DNA of 64,000 bases from Caulobacteraceae bacterium (GTDB taxonomy: Bacteria; Pseudomonadota; Alphaproteobacteria; Caulobacterales; Caulobacteraceae): the NCBI GenBank assembly GCA_947476325.1, contig CANJPZ010000001.1:62001-126000 (forward strand). The letters run 5' to 3'. Both the position numbers and the translations under genes were made by a program. Positions 36,566 to 63,757 of the stretch are shown here, piece after piece. Under the pieces are notes generated by a model. The model ran no database searches. It saw nothing but the letters and a program-made list of their open reading frames with translations, and was not told the origin of the DNA. Each line of letters starts with the position of its first letter. Position 1 is the stretch's first letter.

Positions 36566-37435
36566 CTACGCCCCCGGCGCCAGTCTGCGGCAGATGTCTT
36601 CCAGCTGTTCCAGGGTCGAATAGGTAATCCCCAGACTGCCCTTGCCGCCCTTGTCGCGGATATCCACCTTCAGCCCCAGAGCGTCCGACAGGCGCTTTTC
36701 CAGCGCCAGGGTGTCGATGTCCTTGCCCGACCGGGCCTTGCCGCCGCTCTCCCGCGCGGCAGGCTCATCGCCCCGCGCCAGAGCCTCGGCGTCGCGCACC
36801 GTCATGCCGCCGTCAACGATCCGCCGGGCCAGGGCCTCGGGATTGGCGGCGCCGAGGATCGCCCGCGCGTGACCGGCGCTCAAATGCCCGGCCAGCACCA
36901 TGTCCTGCACCCCTTGCGGCAGGGCCAGCAGGCGCACCGTATTGGCCACGTGGCTGCGGCTCTTGCCGATGGCGGCGGCGACGTCTTCCTGGGTGCGGCC
37001 AAAGCTGTCGATCAGGTTGCGATAGCCCTGCGCCTCTTCCATGGCATTGAGGTCCGCCCGCTGGACGTTTTCCAGAATGGCGATCTCCAGGGCCTCGGCG
37101 TCGTTGAGGTCGCGCACAATGATCGGGATTTCCCGCTCGCCGGCCCGCTGGGCCGCGCGCCAGCGGCGCTCGCCGGCCACGATCTGGAATTCGCCGGGCG
37201 CGCCGGCCACGGGCCGCACCAGGATCGGCTGCAGCAGGCCGCGCTGGCGGATGGACTCGGCCAGTTCCTCGATCTCGGTCTCGGCAAAGACGCGGCGCGG
37301 CTGATCAGGGTTGCGCCGGATCAGCTCGATCGGCGCCAGGCGGCGGCCATCGCCCACCGGGGCCGGCGCGGCCTCCTGGGTCTCACCCAGCAGGGCCGAC
37401 AGGCCCCGGCCCAGTCCACGTTTCTGATCCGCCAT
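36566..37435 (-). CDS. parB: Chromosome-partitioning protein ParB
   Basis: ParB binds parS near the origin, spreads as a CTP-dependent clamp and is pulled by ParA. The 289-residue protein has the short N-terminal ParA-contact segment KRGLGRGLSALLG, the CTPase/ParB-N region PDQPRRVF...LLQPILVRP and VAGERRWRAAQRAG, the helix-turn-helix TQEDVAAAIGKSRSHVANTVRLL, and a C-terminal dimer domain. Two parS sites lie 3.4 kb away, beside mnmE. It is transcribed 19 bases downstream of parA in the mnmG-rsmG-parA-parB unit. Confidence 0.97.
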   Translation of the reverse strand: MADQKRGLGRGLSALLGETQEAAPAPVGDGRRLAPIELIRRNPDQPRRVFAETEIEELAESIRQRGLLQPILVRPVAGAPGEFQIVAGERRWRAAQRAGEREIPIIVRDLNDAEALEIAILENVQRADLNAMEEAQGYRNLIDSFGRTQEDVAAAIGKSRSHVANTVRLLALPQGVQDMVLAGHLSAGHARAILGAANPEALARRIVDGGMTVRDAEALARGDEPAARESGGKARSGKDIDTLALEKRLSDALGLKVDIRDKGGKGSLGITYSTLEQLEDICRRLAPGA

Positions 37436-37454: not shown

Positions 37455-38276
37455 TTAAGCGGCGCGCGCCTGACGGGCCCGCTCCTGAGTGACCAGTTCG
37501 CGGGCCAGTTTCAGATAGGCCTGGCTGCCCGCGCAGGCCAGGTCGTAGATCAGGGCCGGCTTGCCGAACGACGGCGCCTCGGAAACCCTGACGTTTCTTG
37601 GAATTCGCGTATGATAGACCTTGTCGCCGAAGTGGGCGCGCACGTCCGATTCCACCTGTCCCGACAGGCGGCTGCGGGTGTCGTACATGGTCAGGACAAT
37701 GCCCTGGATCTCGATCTGCGGATTGAGGCTGGAGCGCACCAGCTCGACGGTGCGGACCAGCTGGCTGAGGCCTTCCAGCGCGAAGAACTCGCACTGCAGC
37801 GGCACCAGCACGGCGTCGGCCGCGGCCATGGCGTTGACCGTCAGCACGTTCAGCGACGGCGGACAGTCGATCAGCACATAGGTGAACCGCTCGGGCCCTT
37901 CCTGATGGCGCAGGGGCGCCAGCGCATCCTTCAGCCTGAACGAGCGGCGCGAATCGGTGGCCAGTTCCAGCTCGACCCCCGACAGATCCTGATCGGACGG
38001 GGCGATATAGAGACCCGGAACACTGGTCCTGATCGCCGCTTCGTTGAGGGTCCCCTCGCCCAGCAGGACATCATAGCTGGTTACCTTGCGCTCGTGCCGC
38101 GCCACGCCCAGGCCGGTGGTGGCGTTACCCTGCGGATCAAGGTCGATGATCAGCACGCGCTCGCCCACTGCGGCCAGGGCCGTGCCCAGATTGATTGCCG
38201 TGGTGGTCTTGCCGACGCCGCCCTTCTGGTTCGACACCGACAGCACGCGCAGGGCCTGGGGTTTCCTAGCGCTCAC
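37455..38276 (-). CDS. parA: Chromosome-partitioning ATPase ParA
   Basis: ParA forms a nucleotide-dependent DNA-bound gradient that draws the ParB-parS complex poleward. The 273-residue protein has the deviant Walker A SNQKGGVGKTTTAINL, a Walker A' LIIDLDPQGNAT and the Walker B IDCPPSLN. I start at GTG 38276 with GGGGGA five bases upstream; the frame stays open to TTG 38297 inside rsmG. The 11-base overlap with rsmG indicates coupled translation. Together with parB it forms the polar origin-segregation system. Confidence 0.96.
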   Translation of the reverse strand: MSARKPQALRVLSVSNQKGGVGKTTTAINLGTALAAVGERVLIIDLDPQGNATTGLGVARHERKVTSYDVLLGEGTLNEAAIRTSVPGLYIAPSDQDLSGVELELATDSRRSFRLKDALAPLRHQEGPERFTYVLIDCPPSLNVLTVNAMAAADAVLVPLQCEFFALEGLSQLVRTVELVRSSLNPQIEIQGIVLTMYDTRSRLSGQVESDVRAHFGDKVYHTRIPRNVRVSEAPSFGKPALIYDLACAGSQAYLKLARELVTQERARQARAA

Positions 38277-38922
38277 GCACGTCCCCCGAAATGACAACGA
38301 TCTGGCCGGACGGGTCGCTCTGGCTGGGCCGCAGGGCGTAGCTGAACTTCCAGGCGGTTTCGGCTTCGGCTATCTCGCTCACCACATCACGCCCCTTGAG
38401 GAACAAAGCTGTGGCCCCGGTACGCAGGTAGGGCCGGGCATACCCTAGCAGGCGGACCATCGGTGCGCATGCGCGGGCGGTGACAATATCCACGACAATC
38501 TTCAGCTCTTCGGCCCGCGCGTTATGCACCGCCGCCGGCAGGGCCAGGGCCTCGACCACGGCCCGCAAAAACGTGCAGCGCTTGGTCATGCTCTCGATCA
38601 GGTGGACCTGCGCGCCTTCGCGGCCCTTCAGGAAAATGGCCAGCACGATACCCGGAAACCCCGCGCCTGCGCCCAGATCGGCCCAGACCTCGGCGTCCGG
38701 CGCGAGTTTCAACAGCTGGGCGCTGTCCCAGGCGTGGCGTGACCAGAACTCGGCCAGGGCCGAGGGCCCGACCAGGTTCATTTTCTCGTTCCACTCGGCC
38801 AGCAGGGCCAGATAGGCGTGCAGATCCGCCATCTGCGCCGGCGTGGCGCCTGTGGCGGCCTGAAAGCTCGCCGCATCGGTGACCGCGCGCGCGGCCTCAG
38901 GCTGCGCGAGGACGACGGACAT
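38266..38922 (-). CDS. rsmG: 16S rRNA (guanine-N7)-methyltransferase RsmG
   Basis: RsmG (GidB) methylates G527 of 16S rRNA in the 530 loop. The 218-residue protein shows the SAM-binding motif [31 protein letters not shown], and the lysine-bearing segment LFLKGRD. ATG 38922 gives the expected N-terminus; the 60 upstream codons in frame are inside mnmG and Pro/Arg-rich. It overlaps mnmG by 26 bases and parA by 11 bases. Confidence 0.95.
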
Positions 38923-40797: not shown

Positions 40798-40813
40798 TGT
40801 TTCACGTGGAACA
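40798..40813. promoter_or_regulatory. parS site 1 (one mismatch)
   Basis: TGTTTCACGTGGAACA matches the bacterial parS palindrome TGTTTCACGTGAAACA at 15 of 16 positions. It lies 34 bases after the 40764 region of the mnmG leader, between mnmG and mnmE, and is 35 bases from the perfect copy. Confidence 0.92.
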
Positions 40814-40847: not shown

Positions 40848-40863
40848 TGTTTCACGTGAAACA
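40848..40863. promoter_or_regulatory. parS site 2 (perfect)
   Basis: TGTTTCACGTGAAACA is an exact 16-bp parS palindrome. Its last base directly abuts the TGA stop of mnmE (40864-40866). It is the likely loading site for the ParB encoded 3.4 kb away and lies about 8 kb from the putative replication origin. Confidence 0.97.
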
Positions 40864-46970: not shown

Positions 46971-47998
46971 GCCGCCTCCCTGCAGGGACATATCGGGCCG
47001 CAGGCCTCGAAGGTCCAGCCCTCGCCGGGCGCCACCACAGCCTCGGACGCCAGGGCTGCCTCCACCAGATCGGCCAGGGCGCCGATGAACAGCGGATCGC
47101 AGCTGAGGGTGGGGACACGAATATATTCGCCGCAACCCAGGGCGATGGCCTGCTCGCGATACTCGTGATCCAGCTCGATCAGGGTCTCGACATGCTCGGA
47201 GACAAAGGCGATCGGGCAGACGATAACCCCGCGCCCGGCTTTGACCGCTGCATCAATCGCCTCGACCGTCGAAGGCCCGGTCCAGACCAGGCGCCCGACC
47301 CGGCTTTGATAGCAGACGGCGTGATCAAATCCGCCGCCCAGCGCCGCAACCACGGCGGCGGCTGTCGCCTCGACCTGCTTTTGATAGGGATCACCGCCGT
47401 CGATGGTCTTTTGCGGCAGGCCGTGGGCCGAGAACAACACCCGCACGGGCCCCTTGGCGGCCTTCAGGGCTGTGGCCACGCCAGCGGCGTGTGCGGCGAT
47501 GAAATTGGGCTGGACCGGATAGCAACAGATCTCGCGCACGCGGCCGGGGCCTTTGTAGGCCGCTTTCCAGGCCTTGACCGACGAGCGCGTGGTGGTGGTC
47601 GAATACTGCGGATAGAGCGGCAGCAGGATCACCTCGTCCGGCGCATAGTCGGCGACGTCCCGGGCGGCTTCTTCGGTGAACGGATGCCAGTAGCGCATGG
47701 CCAGGAAGATACGGGCCTGCCGGGTTATCAGCCGGCCCTGGAGGGCAGTGGTCAGGGCCACGGCCTGGGCCCGGGTCTCGGCGAGCAGCGGCGAGGCGCC
47801 GCCCATCATCGCATAGTTGGCGCCGGACGGTTTGGCGCGGGTGGACGAGATGACCTGGGCCAGGATCTGCCGCAACGGCGTGGGCAAGGTGATGATCGCC
47901 GGGTCAGAGAACAGGTTCTTCAGAAACGGCTGCACCGCCGCCAGACTGTCAGGCCCGCCCAGATTGAACAGAACGACAGCGACCTTGCGCGCGGGCAT
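46967..47998 (-). CDS. hemH: Ferrochelatase
   Basis: HemH inserts iron into protoporphyrin IX to make heme. The 343-residue protein begins VAVVLFNLGGPDSLAAVQPFL, has LFSAHGLPQKTIDGGDPY with the catalytic histidine, the second half ICPIAFVSEHVETLIELD, and ends with CGPICPCREAA, a Cys-rich tail that could bind an iron-sulfur cluster as in some bacterial ferrochelatases. It overlaps hemE by one base and hemJ by four, making a tight operon. Confidence 0.95.
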   Translation of the reverse strand: MPARKVAVVLFNLGGPDSLAAVQPFLKNLFSDPAIITLPTPLRQILAQVISSTRAKPSGANYAMMGGASPLLAETRAQAVALTTALQGRLITRQARIFLAMRYWHPFTEEAARDVADYAPDEVILLPLYPQYSTTTTRSSVKAWKAAYKGPGRVREICCYPVQPNFIAAHAAGVATALKAAKGPVRVLFSAHGLPQKTIDGGDPYQKQVEATAAAVVAALGGGFDHAVCYQSRVGRLVWTGPSTVEAIDAAVKAGRGVIVCPIAFVSEHVETLIELDHEYREQAIALGCGEYIRVPTLSCDPLFIGALADLVEAALASEAVVAPGEGWTFEACGPICPCREAA

Positions 47999-49029
47999 CA
48001 GGACCCTGTGACCCGGGCCAGCGCCCGTTCGATGTGGGCGATCGGGGTGTCAGGCAGCAGGCCATGGCCCAGATTGAAGATATAGGGCCCGCTTCCCCAT
48101 TGTTCGATCAGCTGGTCGATCCGCGCGTCCATCGCCGGCCCTCCCGCCCGCAGCAGCAGGGGATCAAGCGCCCCCTGGATGGTTCTGGTCTTCTGGATAC
48201 GCAGCCCGGCCGCGGCGGCGGCGCCGACGTCCAGCGCCACACAATCAACGCCGGCCCGGTCTGCATAAACTTCGGCGAGACTGGAGGCTCCCCTCGGAAA
48301 TCCTATGATCGGGGCGGTCACGCACAGATCTCTCAAGCCCTTTACGATCCGCGCGTGCGGGCGGATCACCAGACGCTCGAACAGATCTTCCGGCAGGTTC
48401 TCGGCCCAGCTTTCAAAGATCTTCAGCGCCTGGGCGCCGCTGCGCGCCTGCATGGCCAGATAGGCGATCGTGCCATCGACCAGCACATCGATCAGGGCGT
48501 CCAGCTCGGCCGGGTTGGTATAGGCATAGGTGCGCGCCCGCTCGCGATCCGATGAGCCACCTTCCAGCATATAGGTCGCCACTGTCCACGGCGCTCCGGC
48601 AAACCCGATCAGGGCGCGGTGCGGCTCTAGCTGAGCCCGAACCCGTTTGAGCGTCTCACCCACGGCGGACAACCGACCGGTTGAGGCGGCGACCTCGGCG
48701 GCCAGTTTTTCGATCGGCGGCAGCGGCGCCAGCTTTGGCCCTTCACCAGCTTCAAACCAGACGTCCTGGCCCAGGGCCCGTGGCAGCAACAGGATATCGG
48801 CAAACACGATGGCCGCGCTGAGCGGAAACCGGCGCATGGGCTGCATCGTCGCCTCGGCCGCCATTTCCGGATTGAGGCAAAACGAAATGAAGTCAGGCGC
48901 CTTTTCACGAAGGGCCCTGTACTCAGGCAAGGTCCGCCCGGCCTGGCGCATGAACCACACCGGCGGACGGGCAAGGGTCTCGCCGGCAAGGGCGCGGAGC
49001 AGGGCGGGCTTATGGTCAGGCGATGTCAT
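47998..49029 (-). CDS. hemE: Uroporphyrinogen decarboxylase
   Basis: HemE decarboxylates uroporphyrinogen III to coproporphyrinogen III. The 343-residue protein has PPVWFMRQAGRTLPEYR with the substrate-binding arginines, GFAGAPWTVATYMLEGG, and GHGLLPDTPIAHIERAL at the C-terminus. ATG 49029 gives the normal start; the frame runs 24 codons further into the origin. The gene leads hemE-hemH-hemJ away from the replication origin, as in Caulobacter, where the hemE promoter lies inside the origin. Confidence 0.95.
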   Translation of the reverse strand: MTSPDHKPALLRALAGETLARPPVWFMRQAGRTLPEYRALREKAPDFISFCLNPEMAAEATMQPMRRFPLSAAIVFADILLLPRALGQDVWFEAGEGPKLAPLPPIEKLAAEVAASTGRLSAVGETLKRVRAQLEPHRALIGFAGAPWTVATYMLEGGSSDRERARTYAYTNPAELDALIDVLVDGTIAYLAMQARSGAQALKIFESWAENLPEDLFERLVIRPHARIVKGLRDLCVTAPIIGFPRGASSLAEVYADRAGVDCVALDVGAAAAAGLRIQKTRTIQGALDPLLLRAGGPAMDARIDQLIEQWGSGPYIFNLGHGLLPDTPIAHIERALARVTGS

Positions 49030-49111
49030 GACGCCCTTAAAGCCTTTGCGCTCTCCGCTCTCAAGAGGGGTGACACACAAGCCGGGGGACCGGGGCCCCA
49101 TCCTGTCTTCC

Positions 49112-49126
49112 TTAAAGAAGTCTTAA
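49112..49126. promoter_or_regulatory. CtrA-binding box, hemE side of the origin
   Basis: TTAA-AGAAGTC-TTAA is an exact CtrA consensus, 83 bases from the hemE start and overlapping the probable hemE promoter. By analogy with Caulobacter, CtrA~P here would repress both initiation and hemE. Confidence 0.9.
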
Positions 49127-49162
49127 TAAAAGTTCGGAAGAGGCAGTATGGCCAGGGCATAC

Positions 49163-49171
49163 CGTGGATAA
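49163..49171 (-). promoter_or_regulatory. Best DnaA box in the origin
   Basis: The minus strand reads TTATCCACG, one mismatch (last base) from TTATCCACA. It lies in the hemE half of the origin. Confidence 0.75.
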
Positions 49172-49295
49172 GCTTTACAGAACCCGGTTTGCAGGGCGTG
49201 CGTCCACAGATCCATGCGGGTCTGTGAAGTGCGGGATTAGCCTGCCAAGCCCCTGATTCAACACTATATCCGGATTTGCTTCCGGTGGACCAAAC

Positions 49296-49304
49296 GGTGG
49301 ATTA
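49296..49304 (-). promoter_or_regulatory. Weaker DnaA-like box
   Basis: The minus strand reads TAATCCACC, and a related TGGTCCACC lies four bases to its left (49284-49292). Both keep the TCCAC core and resemble the low-affinity G-boxes of the Caulobacter origin. Confidence 0.5.
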
Positions 49305-49447
49305 ACCGGACTGGAAAACCCTTTGGGGGGTTTGTTCAGGTCGAGCTGAAGCCCGGGAAAACGGGCACAACAAACCGCCTGGCCATACAGGGTGGGCCCG
49401 GCGCGATCGCTTCCGGCGTGGAGAGGTGGGCACAAGTTCCCGCTTCG

Positions 49448-49462
49448 TTAAGACTTCGTTAA
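49448..49462. promoter_or_regulatory. CtrA-binding box, PPSR side of the origin
   Basis: TTAA-GACTTCG-TTAA is an exact CtrA consensus, about 60 bases before the start of the PPSR gene and 336 bases from the other origin box. Confidence 0.9.
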
Positions 49463-49520
49463 CCCTCCAGACACAGGTCAGCGTGGACAACTTGGCCGCA
49501 AGGTCCGAAATAGACGCCTC

Positions 49521-50366
49521 ATGACCTCAAATCGCCTGGCCACCTATTTTCATGTCCACCTGGTGTCGGACTCCACCGGCGAGACCCTCAACGCCATGGC
49601 GCGGGCGGTTTGCGCGCGGTTTGAGGACGTTTTGCCTATCGAGCACATCTATCCCCTTGTCCGTTCGGAAAAGCAGATGGCGCGGGTGATTGAAGAGATC
49701 GCCAACGCACCGGGCATCGTGCTGCACACCATTGTTGATCCCGGCCTGCGGGAGCGCCTGGAAAAGGCCTGCGCGGATCTGCAGGTATCATGTCTGGCCG
49801 CGCTTGATCCCCTGATCTCGGCCATGGGCCGCTATCTGGGCGCTGCGGTTTCCAGCCGGGTCGGCGCCCAGCACAATCTCGACAACGACTACTTCAACCG
49901 CATGGGCGCCCTGACCTATGCGATTTCCCATGACGACGGCCAGGCGACCAATGATCTGGACAATGCCGACGTGGTGCTGGTCGGAATCAGCCGCACTTCC
50001 AAGACGCCGACCTGCATCTATCTCGCCCATCGTGGGGTCAAGGCGGCCAATGTGCCGCTGGTGCCGGGGGCAGCCCTGCCGGAAGGTTTGCTGGGCCTCA
50101 AGCGTGCCATGGTGGTGGGGCTTACCGCCTCCCCCGACAGGCTGGTGCAGATTCGGCGCAATCGCCTTTTGTCCCTCAAGGAAGACCGCGAGAGCGCCTA
50201 TATCGACGCCGACGCCGTGCGCGACGAAGTTATCGCCGCCCGCCGGCTGTATGAGCGCCAGGGCTGGCCGGTGATCGACGTGACCCGCAGATCGGTCGAG
50301 GAGACCGCCGCGGCGATCCTCAACCTGCTCACCGCCGGCCGCGGCAAGGTTGAAGTCCTCACGTGA
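49521..50366 (+). CDS. Pyruvate, phosphate dikinase/PEP synthase regulatory protein (PPSR)
   Basis: This DUF299-type bifunctional ADP-dependent kinase/Pi-dependent pyrophosphorylase switches a dikinase on and off by reversible threonine phosphorylation. The 281-residue protein begins FHVHLVSDSTGETLNAMARA and carries the P-loop-like GISRTSKTPTCIYLAHRGVKAAN and the late RIRRNRL-type basic region. It is the gene immediately right of the replication origin in Caulobacter. The stop overlaps the maf start by four bases, so the run PPSR-maf-aroE-coaE is a chain of ATGA overlaps. Confidence 0.93.
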   Translation: MTSNRLATYFHVHLVSDSTGETLNAMARAVCARFEDVLPIEHIYPLVRSEKQMARVIEEIANAPGIVLHTIVDPGLRERLEKACADLQVSCLAALDPLISAMGRYLGAAVSSRVGAQHNLDNDYFNRMGALTYAISHDDGQATNDLDNADVVLVGISRTSKTPTCIYLAHRGVKAANVPLVPGAALPEGLLGLKRAMVVGLTASPDRLVQIRRNRLLSLKEDRESAYIDADAVRDEVIAARRLYERQGWPVIDVTRRSVEETAAAILNLLTAGRGKVEVLT

Positions 50367-61739: not shown

Positions 61740-62297
61740 CTACTTTGGGGCCCGCTTGCTCAGAATGCGCTGCAGGGTGCGTCGGTGCATGTTGAGCCGG
61801 CGAGCGGTCTCGGAAACATTCTTGCCGCACATTTCATAGATTCGTTGGATATGCTCCCAACGAACGCGATCGGCCGACATCGGATTTTCGGGCGGAGGCG
61901 GACTCTCGCCTCCGACTGCAAGCAGGGCGCGGGCCACATCGTCGGCGTCAGCGGGCTTGGCCAGATAGTCGATGGCGCCTGCCTTAACCGCCGCGACGGC
62001 GGTGGCGATATTGCCATAACCGGTCAGCATGACGATTTTCGCGTCCGGCCGGGCCGCCTGCAGCGCCCGCACCACCTGCAGGCCGTTGCCGTCCTCCAGC
62101 CGCATGTCCAGCACCGCGTAGGCCGGCGCCCGCGCGCGAACCTGGTTGATCGCTTCGGTGACAGACTCGGCCAGCACGGGTTCGAAGCCGCGAACCTCCA
62201 GCGCCCGGCCCAGGCGGGTGCGTAAGGGCGCGTCATCATCCAGCAGCAGCAGGCTCTTGTCTGGCAGGGCCGCAATAATCTGCGTCAGGTCAGCCAT
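61740..62297 (-). CDS. regA: RegA/ActR/PrrA-type response regulator
   Basis: This 185-residue regulator has a receiver domain (LLLLDDDAPLRTRL; phospho-acceptor D64 in YAVLDMRLEDGNG; switch lysine in YLAKPADAD) and a C-terminal Fis-type helix-turn-helix KNVSETARRLNMHRRTLQRIL, with the proline-rich linker PPPPEN between them. RegA proteins are global redox regulators of respiration and metabolism in alphaproteobacteria. ATG 62297 gives the family start MADLTQIIA; in-frame ATGs at 62300 and 62336 are alternatives and have no clear SD. The cognate kinase gene lies 71 bases upstream on the same strand. Confidence 0.93.
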   Translation of the reverse strand: MADLTQIIAALPDKSLLLLDDDAPLRTRLGRALEVRGFEPVLAESVTEAINQVRARAPAYAVLDMRLEDGNGLQVVRALQAARPDAKIVMLTGYGNIATAVAAVKAGAIDYLAKPADADDVARALLAVGGESPPPPENPMSADRVRWEHIQRIYEMCGKNVSETARRLNMHRRTLQRILSKRAPK

Positions 62298-62368
62298 CAT
62301 CTCTTTCGCTGTGGATGAAGCGAGCGCTCCATTCATTGATCTATCTTGGAACCTGTTTTCGTCGCGCT

Positions 62369-63757
62369 TCAAGCGCCAAGCGACGAATAATCTCGCAGAA
62401 CGGGCGCCTCGATGTCGCTGCGCGGCCAGCGTGCTGACACGACAGCGCCGCCACGCCGGACATTTTCAAAGGTCACACTGGCGCCTGACTTCTCAAGAAG
62501 GGTCTTGGCGATAAACACGCCCAGCCCCATTCCCTCATGTCCCGAGCGCGACCCCTCGCCCGACGGCCGGGTGGTGACATAGGGCTGTCCGAGCCTCGAC
62601 ATGACCTCGGGCGCGAAACCCTGCCCGTCATCCTGGACCTCGAGGATCACGGCCCGCTCATCGTAGCGGGCCCGGACAAGCACTTCGAGCTTGGCGAAAT
62701 CGACGGCGTTGTCGATCAGGGTGGTCATGGCGTGGAGCATATCAGGAAGCCGCCGAATTTCCGGAGGCGCCTTCCCGGGCGGGCCCGATAAAACGCCCTC
62801 GATGCGAATGTCACCGCCGATGTGCGGTTCGATTACCTCGTTGAGAAACTGGGCGAGGGTAAGCCGCTCGTGCATGGTGTCACGGGCCTCAGGCGCCTCG
62901 GTCAATCGTCTGAGGATTTCCCGGCAGCGTTCGGCCTGCTGTACCAGCAGTTCTGCGTCGTCGCGCAGGGTGCCGGGTGCGGACTCGCGCGCCAGTTCCC
63001 TGGACACGATCTGGATGGTGGCCAGGGGGGCGCCCAGCTCGTGGGCCGCCGCTGCGGCCAGGGCCCCGAGCGCCGAAAGGCGCTGCTCTCGGGCCAGAAC
63101 CTGCTGCGCCACGTTCAGCGCGATTTCCATGCGCTCCGCTTCCTGCGAAGCGCGCCAGGCATAACTGGCCGTAAAGCCGATCGTGGACGCCAGGGCGACC
63201 GAGATACCGGTGCGATAGAGGGTCGGGAGCTTGATCAGCTCGTCCAGGGGCGCCGGTAGCGGCCAGGCCCAGAGGGACAGGGCGGCCACGCAGACAAATC
63301 CCAGCATCACCATGGCCAGTACATAGATCGATCGGGTCGCCGTCGCGGCCAGGGTGATGGGGGCCACGAGAAGAAAGGCGAACGGATTGGCGACGCCGCC
63401 CGTAAAGAATACCAGGCTCGAAAGCTGGACGGTATCGAAGGCCAGAATGGCGACGTTTTCCCAGTCGGCCGGCTGGCGCTGCCGCCTGTCGAGGCCATAA
63501 AGGACCAGATTGAGCGCCGCGCTGAGAAGCACAACAGGTGCGCACCAAAGCCAGGGAAATCTTACGCCGAGCGCCAGTGCTGCAAAGCCCAGCAAAATCG
63601 CCTGGCCTACAATTCCCCTCCAGCGCAGGGCAACAAGGGTGTGCAGACGCAGCCGACCACGGCCCGCGGCGAACGCCCAGGGAGCAAAGGCCTCGGCGGC
63701 GTAGTCTTGCGGGCCAGGCGGCGAAGGGCTATCGGGGCGGGCGGTTGAGGACGACAT
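62369..63757 (-). CDS. regB: RegB/ActS/PrrB-type redox sensor histidine kinase
   Basis: The 462-residue membrane kinase has six predicted helices (about residues 45-200), the quinone-sensing heptapeptide GGVANPF at 120-126, the phospho-acceptor histidine at 239 in AAAAHELGAPLAT, the redox-sensitive cysteine position at 278 (QAERCREIL), and the ATP-binding G-boxes DDGQGFAPE and GMGLGVFIAKTLLEKSGA. RegB senses quinone redox state and controls RegA. It lies head-to-tail before regA and divergent from senC, an arrangement like the prrB-prrC-prrA loci of Rhodobacter. Confidence 0.93.
   Translation of the reverse strand: MSSSTARPDSPSPPGPQDYAAEAFAPWAFAAGRGRLRLHTLVALRWRGIVGQAILLGFAALALGVRFPWLWCAPVVLLSAALNLVLYGLDRRQRQPADWENVAILAFDTVQLSSLVFFTGGVANPFAFLLVAPITLAATATRSIYVLAMVMLGFVCVAALSLWAWPLPAPLDELIKLPTLYRTGISVALASTIGFTASYAWRASQEAERMEIALNVAQQVLAREQRLSALGALAAAAAHELGAPLATIQIVSRELARESAPGTLRDDAELLVQQAERCREILRRLTEAPEARDTMHERLTLAQFLNEVIEPHIGGDIRIEGVLSGPPGKAPPEIRRLPDMLHAMTTLIDNAVDFAKLEVLVRARYDERAVILEVQDDGQGFAPEVMSRLGQPYVTTRPSGEGSRSGHEGMGLGVFIAKTLLEKSGASVTFENVRRGGAVVSARWPRSDIEAPVLRDYSSLGA

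Follow-up and report, generated by a model that had tools for sequence, protein, structure and literature searches.

A very probable chromosome origin between hemE and PPSR in a relative of Caulobacter, with a set of binding sites that looks trimmed and rearranged

The intergenic region between hemE and PPSR in this Caulobacteraceae genome is very probably the site where this uncultured relative of Caulobacter starts to copy its chromosome. It occupies positions 49030–49520 of the window, that is, of the whole stretch of 64,000 nucleotides analysed (Table 1). The best explanation, which we regard as highly likely, is a chromosome origin orthologous to Cori of Caulobacter crescentus, controlled by DnaA and CtrA, whose regulatory set has been remodelled in the genus. 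The origin is in the expected place and, on sequence comparison, its set of binding sites looks trimmed and rearranged with respect to relatives.

Profile matches identified both flanking genes, in line with an earlier reading of the letters alone (the sequence-only reading), which had placed the gap between hemE and PPSR at the Caulobacter origin position. The hemE start at 49029 is backed by alignment with relatives. In the available part of PMC1914354, C. crescentus Cori is flanked by hemE and COG1806, and the gap between them was identified by experiment as the origin of that species. On the left side the gene order is holA / parB-parA-rsmG-mnmG-mnmE / rho / hemH-hemE, followed by the gap; to its right lie PPSR-maf-aroE-coaE-dnaQ-type exonuclease-secB. 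A pair of parS sites, the only ones genome-wide at up to one mismatch, is found ∼8.2 kb from the gap, so that parAB and parS are both near it, as at a Cori locus; in C. crescentus, too, parS lies near Cori. Gene order, the parS pair, the homologous gaps and the presence of genes for CtrA, GcrA and DnaA point to the Caulobacteraceae origin (Cori). The earlier placement at the Caulobacter origin position is upheld, with CtrA boxes that far exceed chance and keep their positions within the genus. The genome (2.65 Mb in 39 contigs) contains the genes for CtrA, GcrA and DnaA and encodes three HU/IHF-fold proteins. Its dnaA gene (L129, G000 C1:333104–334480) is 222 kb from the gap on the same contig; the distance between dnaA and the origin differs by ∼50 kb between two Caulobacter species (PMC4221894, available in part). 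No Rfam family was found at gathering score in 48500–50000. A RegA/RegB-type (ActR/PrrA, ActS/PrrB) redox two-component pair is encoded at 61740–63757, ∼12 kb from the origin.

Table 1. Features of the putative origin region and its surroundings (window positions; C1 is the contig carrying the window).
Feature	Position	Strand	Basis and remarks
Intergenic region, very probable origin (Cori equivalent)	49030–49520	.	491 bp; counterpart found at 114 distinct loci
hemE, uroporphyrinogen decarboxylase (left flank)	47998–49029	-	PF01208 (URO-D), E 9e-97
PPSR / COG1806 (DUF299) kinase-pyrophosphorylase (right flank)	49521–50366	+	PF03618 (Kinase-PPPase), E 5e-92
parB	36566–37435	-	TIGR00180 over cut-off
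parA	37455–38297	-	ParA/MinD-type models matched below curated cut-offs
parS-like site	40798–40813 (C1:102798–102813)	.	One mismatch to TGTTTCACGTGAAACA
parS site, exact palindrome	40848–40863 (C1:102848–102863)	.	Whole-genome search
AT-richest 40 bp, candidate unwinding element	49100–49139	.	27/40 A+T; overlaps box A; putative function
CtrA box A, TTAAAGAAGTCTTAA	49112–49126	.	Exact TTAA-N7-TTAA, inside AT-rich segment; exact in 3/3 genus members
DnaA-like TTATCCACG	49163–49171	-	One mismatch to TTATCCACA; not TCCAC in two other genus members
GCGTCCACA	49200–49208	+	TCCAC core unconserved in genus
Single GANTC (CcrM-type), GATTC	49255–49259	.	Motif scan
TGGTCCACC	49284–49292	-	TCCAC core unconserved in genus
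DnaA-like TAATCCACC	49296–49304	-	GTGGATT invariant in 3/3 genus members
Sixth TCCAC core	49417–49425	-	Unconserved in genus
CtrA box E, TTAAGACTTCGTTAA	49448–49462	.	Exact TTAA-N7-TTAA; exact in 3/3 genus members
TCCACA place, 7 nt after box E	49470–49475	+	GACACA in window; TCCACA in 22/27 E-box loci
Invariant 15 nt, CGTGGACAACTTGGC	49482–49496	.	3/3 genus members; DnaA-like TTGTCCACG at 49482–49490, minus strand

The gap was compared with those of relatives in a set of 114 distinct hemE–PPSR gaps (98 before the last 20 stretches were added), drawn from the best 80 of 98 named loci, 30 loci obtained by searching 199 family genomes and 20 further stretches. A total of 130 loci were handled, from which six without hemE in the stretch (L034, L114, L124, L165, L169 and L170) and 10 duplicate gaps were removed. 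Genera g15 and g16, without coordinates among the matches listed, fall outside the 114, as do g12, g20 and a single locus of g21, which lacked hemE. Gap length ranged from 441 to 683 bp, and the window's gap aligns with those of relatives with shared elements in order, both in an alignment of 16 of the 98 gaps and among three genus members. These three, the window's genome included, are the genomes found for genus g1; all keep boxes A and E, and they form a clade (support 100/98) in a tree of the PPSR protein. As a separate observation, no hemE could be recognised in the stretch upstream of PPSR in L124 (G102), L165, L169 and L170, and the origin locus may be rearranged in them.

Two exact TTAA-N7-TTAA sites had been noticed in the gap from its letters; both are present, and no other such site occurs in the 64 kb. 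Dinucleotide shuffles of the gap yielded a mean of 0.006 such boxes, and two were reached in 0 of 5,000. Genome-wide the exact pattern occurs 10 times (reversed control pattern, 5), boxes A and E being the only two of the 10 less than 500 bp apart. Downstream of the ctrA match, at a distance of ∼280 bp, lies another of these exact boxes (G000 C3:40397–40411). The start codons of hemE and PPSR are 82 and 58 bp from their respective boxes; the earlier statement that the boxes sit near two outward promoters therefore holds for position alone, because a scan of 48950–49600 for promoters of the sigma-70 type, the one type covered, found no promoter-like site. A central CtrA box is absent from the gap, where the best central match has two mismatches; TTAACC at 49302 is a possible weaker or half CtrA site. 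The near mirror symmetry of boxes A and E (14 of 15 positions identical with one box reversed, by eye) is not seen in the other two genus members and was therefore given no weight.

Six TCCAC cores were detected in the gap (49164-, 49203+, 49285-, 49297-, 49418- and 49483-) against 1.02 expected, and six or more arose in 2 of 5,000 dinucleotide shuffles. The cluster of DnaA-like sites proposed by the sequence-only reading is thus enriched above chance, with six cores instead of the five counted there; it is also largely unconserved, GTGGA being kept in all three genus members only at the cores 49297 and 49483 (by eye). With a looser rule (9-mers at up to two mismatches from TTATCCACA or TGATCCACA, 214 in 64 kb), the bin 49001–49500 contains five sites and is joint top with one other among 128 bins of 500 bp. 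The best 9-mer is TTATCCACG at 49163, in line with the earlier statement that one site comes close to a full-consensus DnaA box; in a 16-row alignment, 11 of the other 15 rows show a W-box-like GGGGA at this site (by eye). According to the available text of PMC4285127, the G-box is TGATCCACA and the W-box TCCCCA. The former was not found in the gap, and the latter had no match in it on either strand, with one GGGGA seen. Because both are absent and the TCCACA at box E is degenerate, the low-affinity G-box model invoked earlier fits only loosely. DnaA-trios, searched as three-unit runs in the 114 loci, were rejected as a candidate: such runs occurred in 11 loci on the plus and 13 on the minus strand versus 8.9 (s.d. 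3.3) and 7.5 (s.d. 2.1) in shuffles, a somewhat high minus-strand count, yet no clear enrichment across relatives.

Of the 27 loci whose box E is exact, 22 have a TCCACA that begins exactly 7 nt past it, the exceptions being the three g1 members, L024 and L117; the two other g1 members have TACCCA (L019) and TCCCAA (L020) in this place. Next to the 159 CtrA boxes, all of which were searched, just two further TCCACA were found within 60 nt rightwards. TGTGGA, the opposite orientation, was seen to the right at +3 (five times) and +41 (once); its commonest place was 34 nt leftwards (n=13). In the window, TTGTCCACG occurs in reverse 19 nt beyond box E, and GTGGACAACTTGG is confined, among the 114 loci, to the three of genus g1. 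Positions 49482–49496 are the best conserved 15 nt of a gap with a mean three-way identity of 37 percent, and a block that stands out at this level of identity suggests selection. From its sequence, TTGTCCACG at 49482–49490 would be a DnaA site. There is a real, if less than even, possibility that the block is instead the upstream part of the PPSR promoter, for example with a -35 of TTGGCC at 49492 and a -10 of GAAATAG at 49507–49513, and that TTGTCCACG is incidental. Its location 25–39 bp upstream of the PPSR start and the invariance of GAAATAG, likewise seen in 3/3 genus members, favour this alternative, but the block encloses a full TCCAC core (GTGGACAA), superfluous for a -35 element, it is missing from the 111 other loci despite retained PPSR, and the sigma-70 scan yielded no promoter here. 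The DnaA-site and promoter readings are compatible with each other.

The TTAA-N7-TTAA pattern was found 141 times in 98 gaps, versus 0 to 8 times for every other spacing from N0 to N15. Among the 114 gaps, a central box was exact in 84 and present at up to one mismatch in 104, with none at up to one mismatch in 10. Since the ‘central' class combines boxes from several positions and includes box E a second time in L171 and L172, the central-box counts are those of the gap-length control, in which lengths 5, 6, 8 and 9 gave 0–1 exact matches and 4–36 at up to one mismatch, so that the count at up to one mismatch includes some chance matches. The central box is absent from 3/3 g1 members (best match two mismatches). 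The layout with outer boxes only is also found in L092 and L158 and so is not unique to g1. On the tree, built on the PPSR protein alone and with the first 25 names listed for larger clades, a minimum of five state changes is required for the central box. The simplest reading of these sequences is that g1 has lost its central box. Two other loci, L156 and L157 (genus g4), contain no exact CtrA box and have seven TCCAC cores at identical places; the g4 gap is perhaps a DnaA-rich, CtrA-poor origin.

An exact CtrA pair 334–395 bp apart (start to start) was detected in 62 of 390 family genomes (51 plus 12, one in both), against 1 for the reversed control, by a pattern search that is not itself tied to the origin. 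In 36 of the 37 genomes with PPSR coordinates among the matches listed, the pair was within ∼130 bp of the PPSR match (by eye); in G153 it was ∼400 bp away. The pair was seen in genera g1, g5, g19, g21 and g22, with spacings, within the 334–395 bp searched, of 336–337, 357–362, 367, 376–381 and 385–387 bp. Members of g5, g19, g21 and g22 resemble the window in having exact boxes towards both gap ends and differ in spacing, 357–387 bp (59/62 genomes) versus 336, 337 and 336 bp in g1, the shortest within the searched range. Helical phasing of boxes A and E (336 bp being 32 turns of 10.5 bp) was rejected, as no constant phase was found (five cluster means, R 0.56, p ∼0.21 at 10.5 bp).

The boxes could also be missing through errors of assembly or alignment, or through neutral drift without regulatory consequence, which we consider rather unlikely. 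Other loci do lack the central box (the 10 of 114 above), its state has changed repeatedly on the PPSR tree, and laboratory cultures of C. crescentus cope with weakened CtrA sites (PMC4468827, available in part). Against this, three separate genomes present the same absences, near-equal box spacing and the same invariant block, conspicuous in so divergent a gap; assembly error in particular is unlikely because these traits are common to the three.

Smaller elements were also recorded in the gap. The A+T content of its AT-richest segment was matched elsewhere in the 64 kb in only three 200-bp bins. The one GANTC site noted from the sequence was found again and is the sole one in the gap. An element, CATACAGG, at 49384–49391 is invariant in 3/3 genus members, and we know of no binder for it. 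Against a shuffle mean of 3.2, CATACA is present in 14 of 114 gaps; 11 of these have it 123–142 bp before PPSR. Between hemE and box A, at 49083–49105, two terminator-like stem-loops overlap, one on each strand (two found versus a shuffle mean of 0.8).

The sequence-only reading had expected GC skew to switch sign at the gap. This was not seen over 0–360 kb of C1, either in raw skew or in skew at fourfold sites after a coding-strand correction based on crude open-frame gene calls; the right arm of C1 stays negative overall, and neither intergenic skew nor GGGNAGGG counts on C1 gave a clear signal at the gap. The local result either speaks against an origin here or carries no information, and we do not take it as refuting one; skew is described as insufficient for several alphaproteobacteria in the available part of PMC1914354. 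Skew was also sampled at 20 places in G095, a complete relative with a contig that begins immediately before PPSR; it was positive in 9 of 10 stretches at 200–2000 kb, negative in 8 of 8 at 2200–3600 kb and near zero at 0 and 3800 kb. Unlike the local skew in the window's contig, the sampled skew of G095 does switch at the origin locus. That the gap is merely a divergent hemE/PPSR promoter region under CtrA, with the true origin elsewhere, would agree with the local skew, the distant dnaA and the four of six TCCAC cores unconserved in the genus, but is very improbable given that experiments in C. crescentus identified this very gap as the origin (PMC1914354), that G095 skew switches at this locus, that the only parS pair is close by, that the two CtrA boxes and the TCCAC cluster far exceed shuffles and that the gap is long in all 114 loci.

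Read as a Cori-type origin, the gap shares with C. crescentus Cori, as characterised in the available part of PMC1914354, its flanking genes, TTAA-N7-TTAA boxes, an AT-rich segment of ∼40 bp and weak DnaA-like sites. In C. crescentus, five CtrA sites, central ones among them, are present in the origin, along with a dual IHF/CtrA site, two TGATCCACA G-boxes close to CtrA sites and W-boxes of the sequence TCCCCA (PMC1914354, PMC4285127 and PMC4468827, each in part). By contrast, the gap studied here has two exact CtrA boxes, not five, and no central one; it has neither TGATCCACA nor TCCCCA, and the TCCACA at +7 from box E is degenerate, as in 3/3 g1 members, with a reversed TTGTCCACG instead. 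A counterpart of the dual IHF/CtrA site was not found in the gap, which lacks both the central box and TAACGCTCTGTT, the latter present in 2 of 98 gaps (L109 and L112). The IHF consensus itself matched just 3 of 98 gaps, so the gap may still contain a degenerate IHF site. In the Rickettsiales (Rickettsia and Wolbachia), hemE adjoins a gap with CtrA- and DnaA-type sites, the second flanking gene in Wolbachia being COG1253; this likeness follows the published description in the available part of PMC1914354. A literature search of open-licence papers found none on the origin of this genus. A comparative study of Caulobacter origins by Shaheen et al. (2009) is cited in PMC4468827 and PMC4285127.

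In the mechanism we propose, DnaA would bind weak sites, the best candidates being TTGTCCACG at 49482, TAATCCACC at 49296 and TTATCCACG at 49163, and bound DnaA would open the AT-rich segment at about 49100–49139. In non-replicating cells, CtrA on box A would cover this segment upstream of hemE and, together with CtrA on box E upstream of PPSR, would hold initiation off. CtrA at both boxes would also affect the divergent hemE and PPSR genes, perhaps quieting their promoters. Remodelling in the genus would have removed the central CtrA box and the TCCACA at box E; a DnaA-like site in reverse orientation, 19 nt past that box, is invariant.

How CtrA blocks Cori is an unsettled question. In the available text of PMC4468827, steric exclusion of DnaA is called the simplest mechanism, acting at G-boxes that touch or overlap CtrA sites in C. 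crescentus, yet weakening all five CtrA sites only mildly perturbs the laboratory cell cycle. As the joined CtrA–DnaA element is missing from g1, steric exclusion may act differently there. A bolder suggestion, which we hold to be less likely than not, is that competition between CtrA and DnaA at the joined element is gone in g1 and that control is exerted at both ends, with CtrA on box A masking the unwinding segment and CtrA on box E facing a new reversed DnaA site. The observation is genuine and mostly expected; the origin would be of a known type, and what is new is its site set, which looks trimmed and rearranged in this genus. For the family, the fixed 7-nt join of box E and TCCACA gives a well-defined rule of design that lends itself to testing. 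A lineage with the outer CtrA boxes and without the joined element would be a natural mutant for the Cori block and, if our suggestion is true, steric exclusion of DnaA would have been naturally replaced in one lineage.
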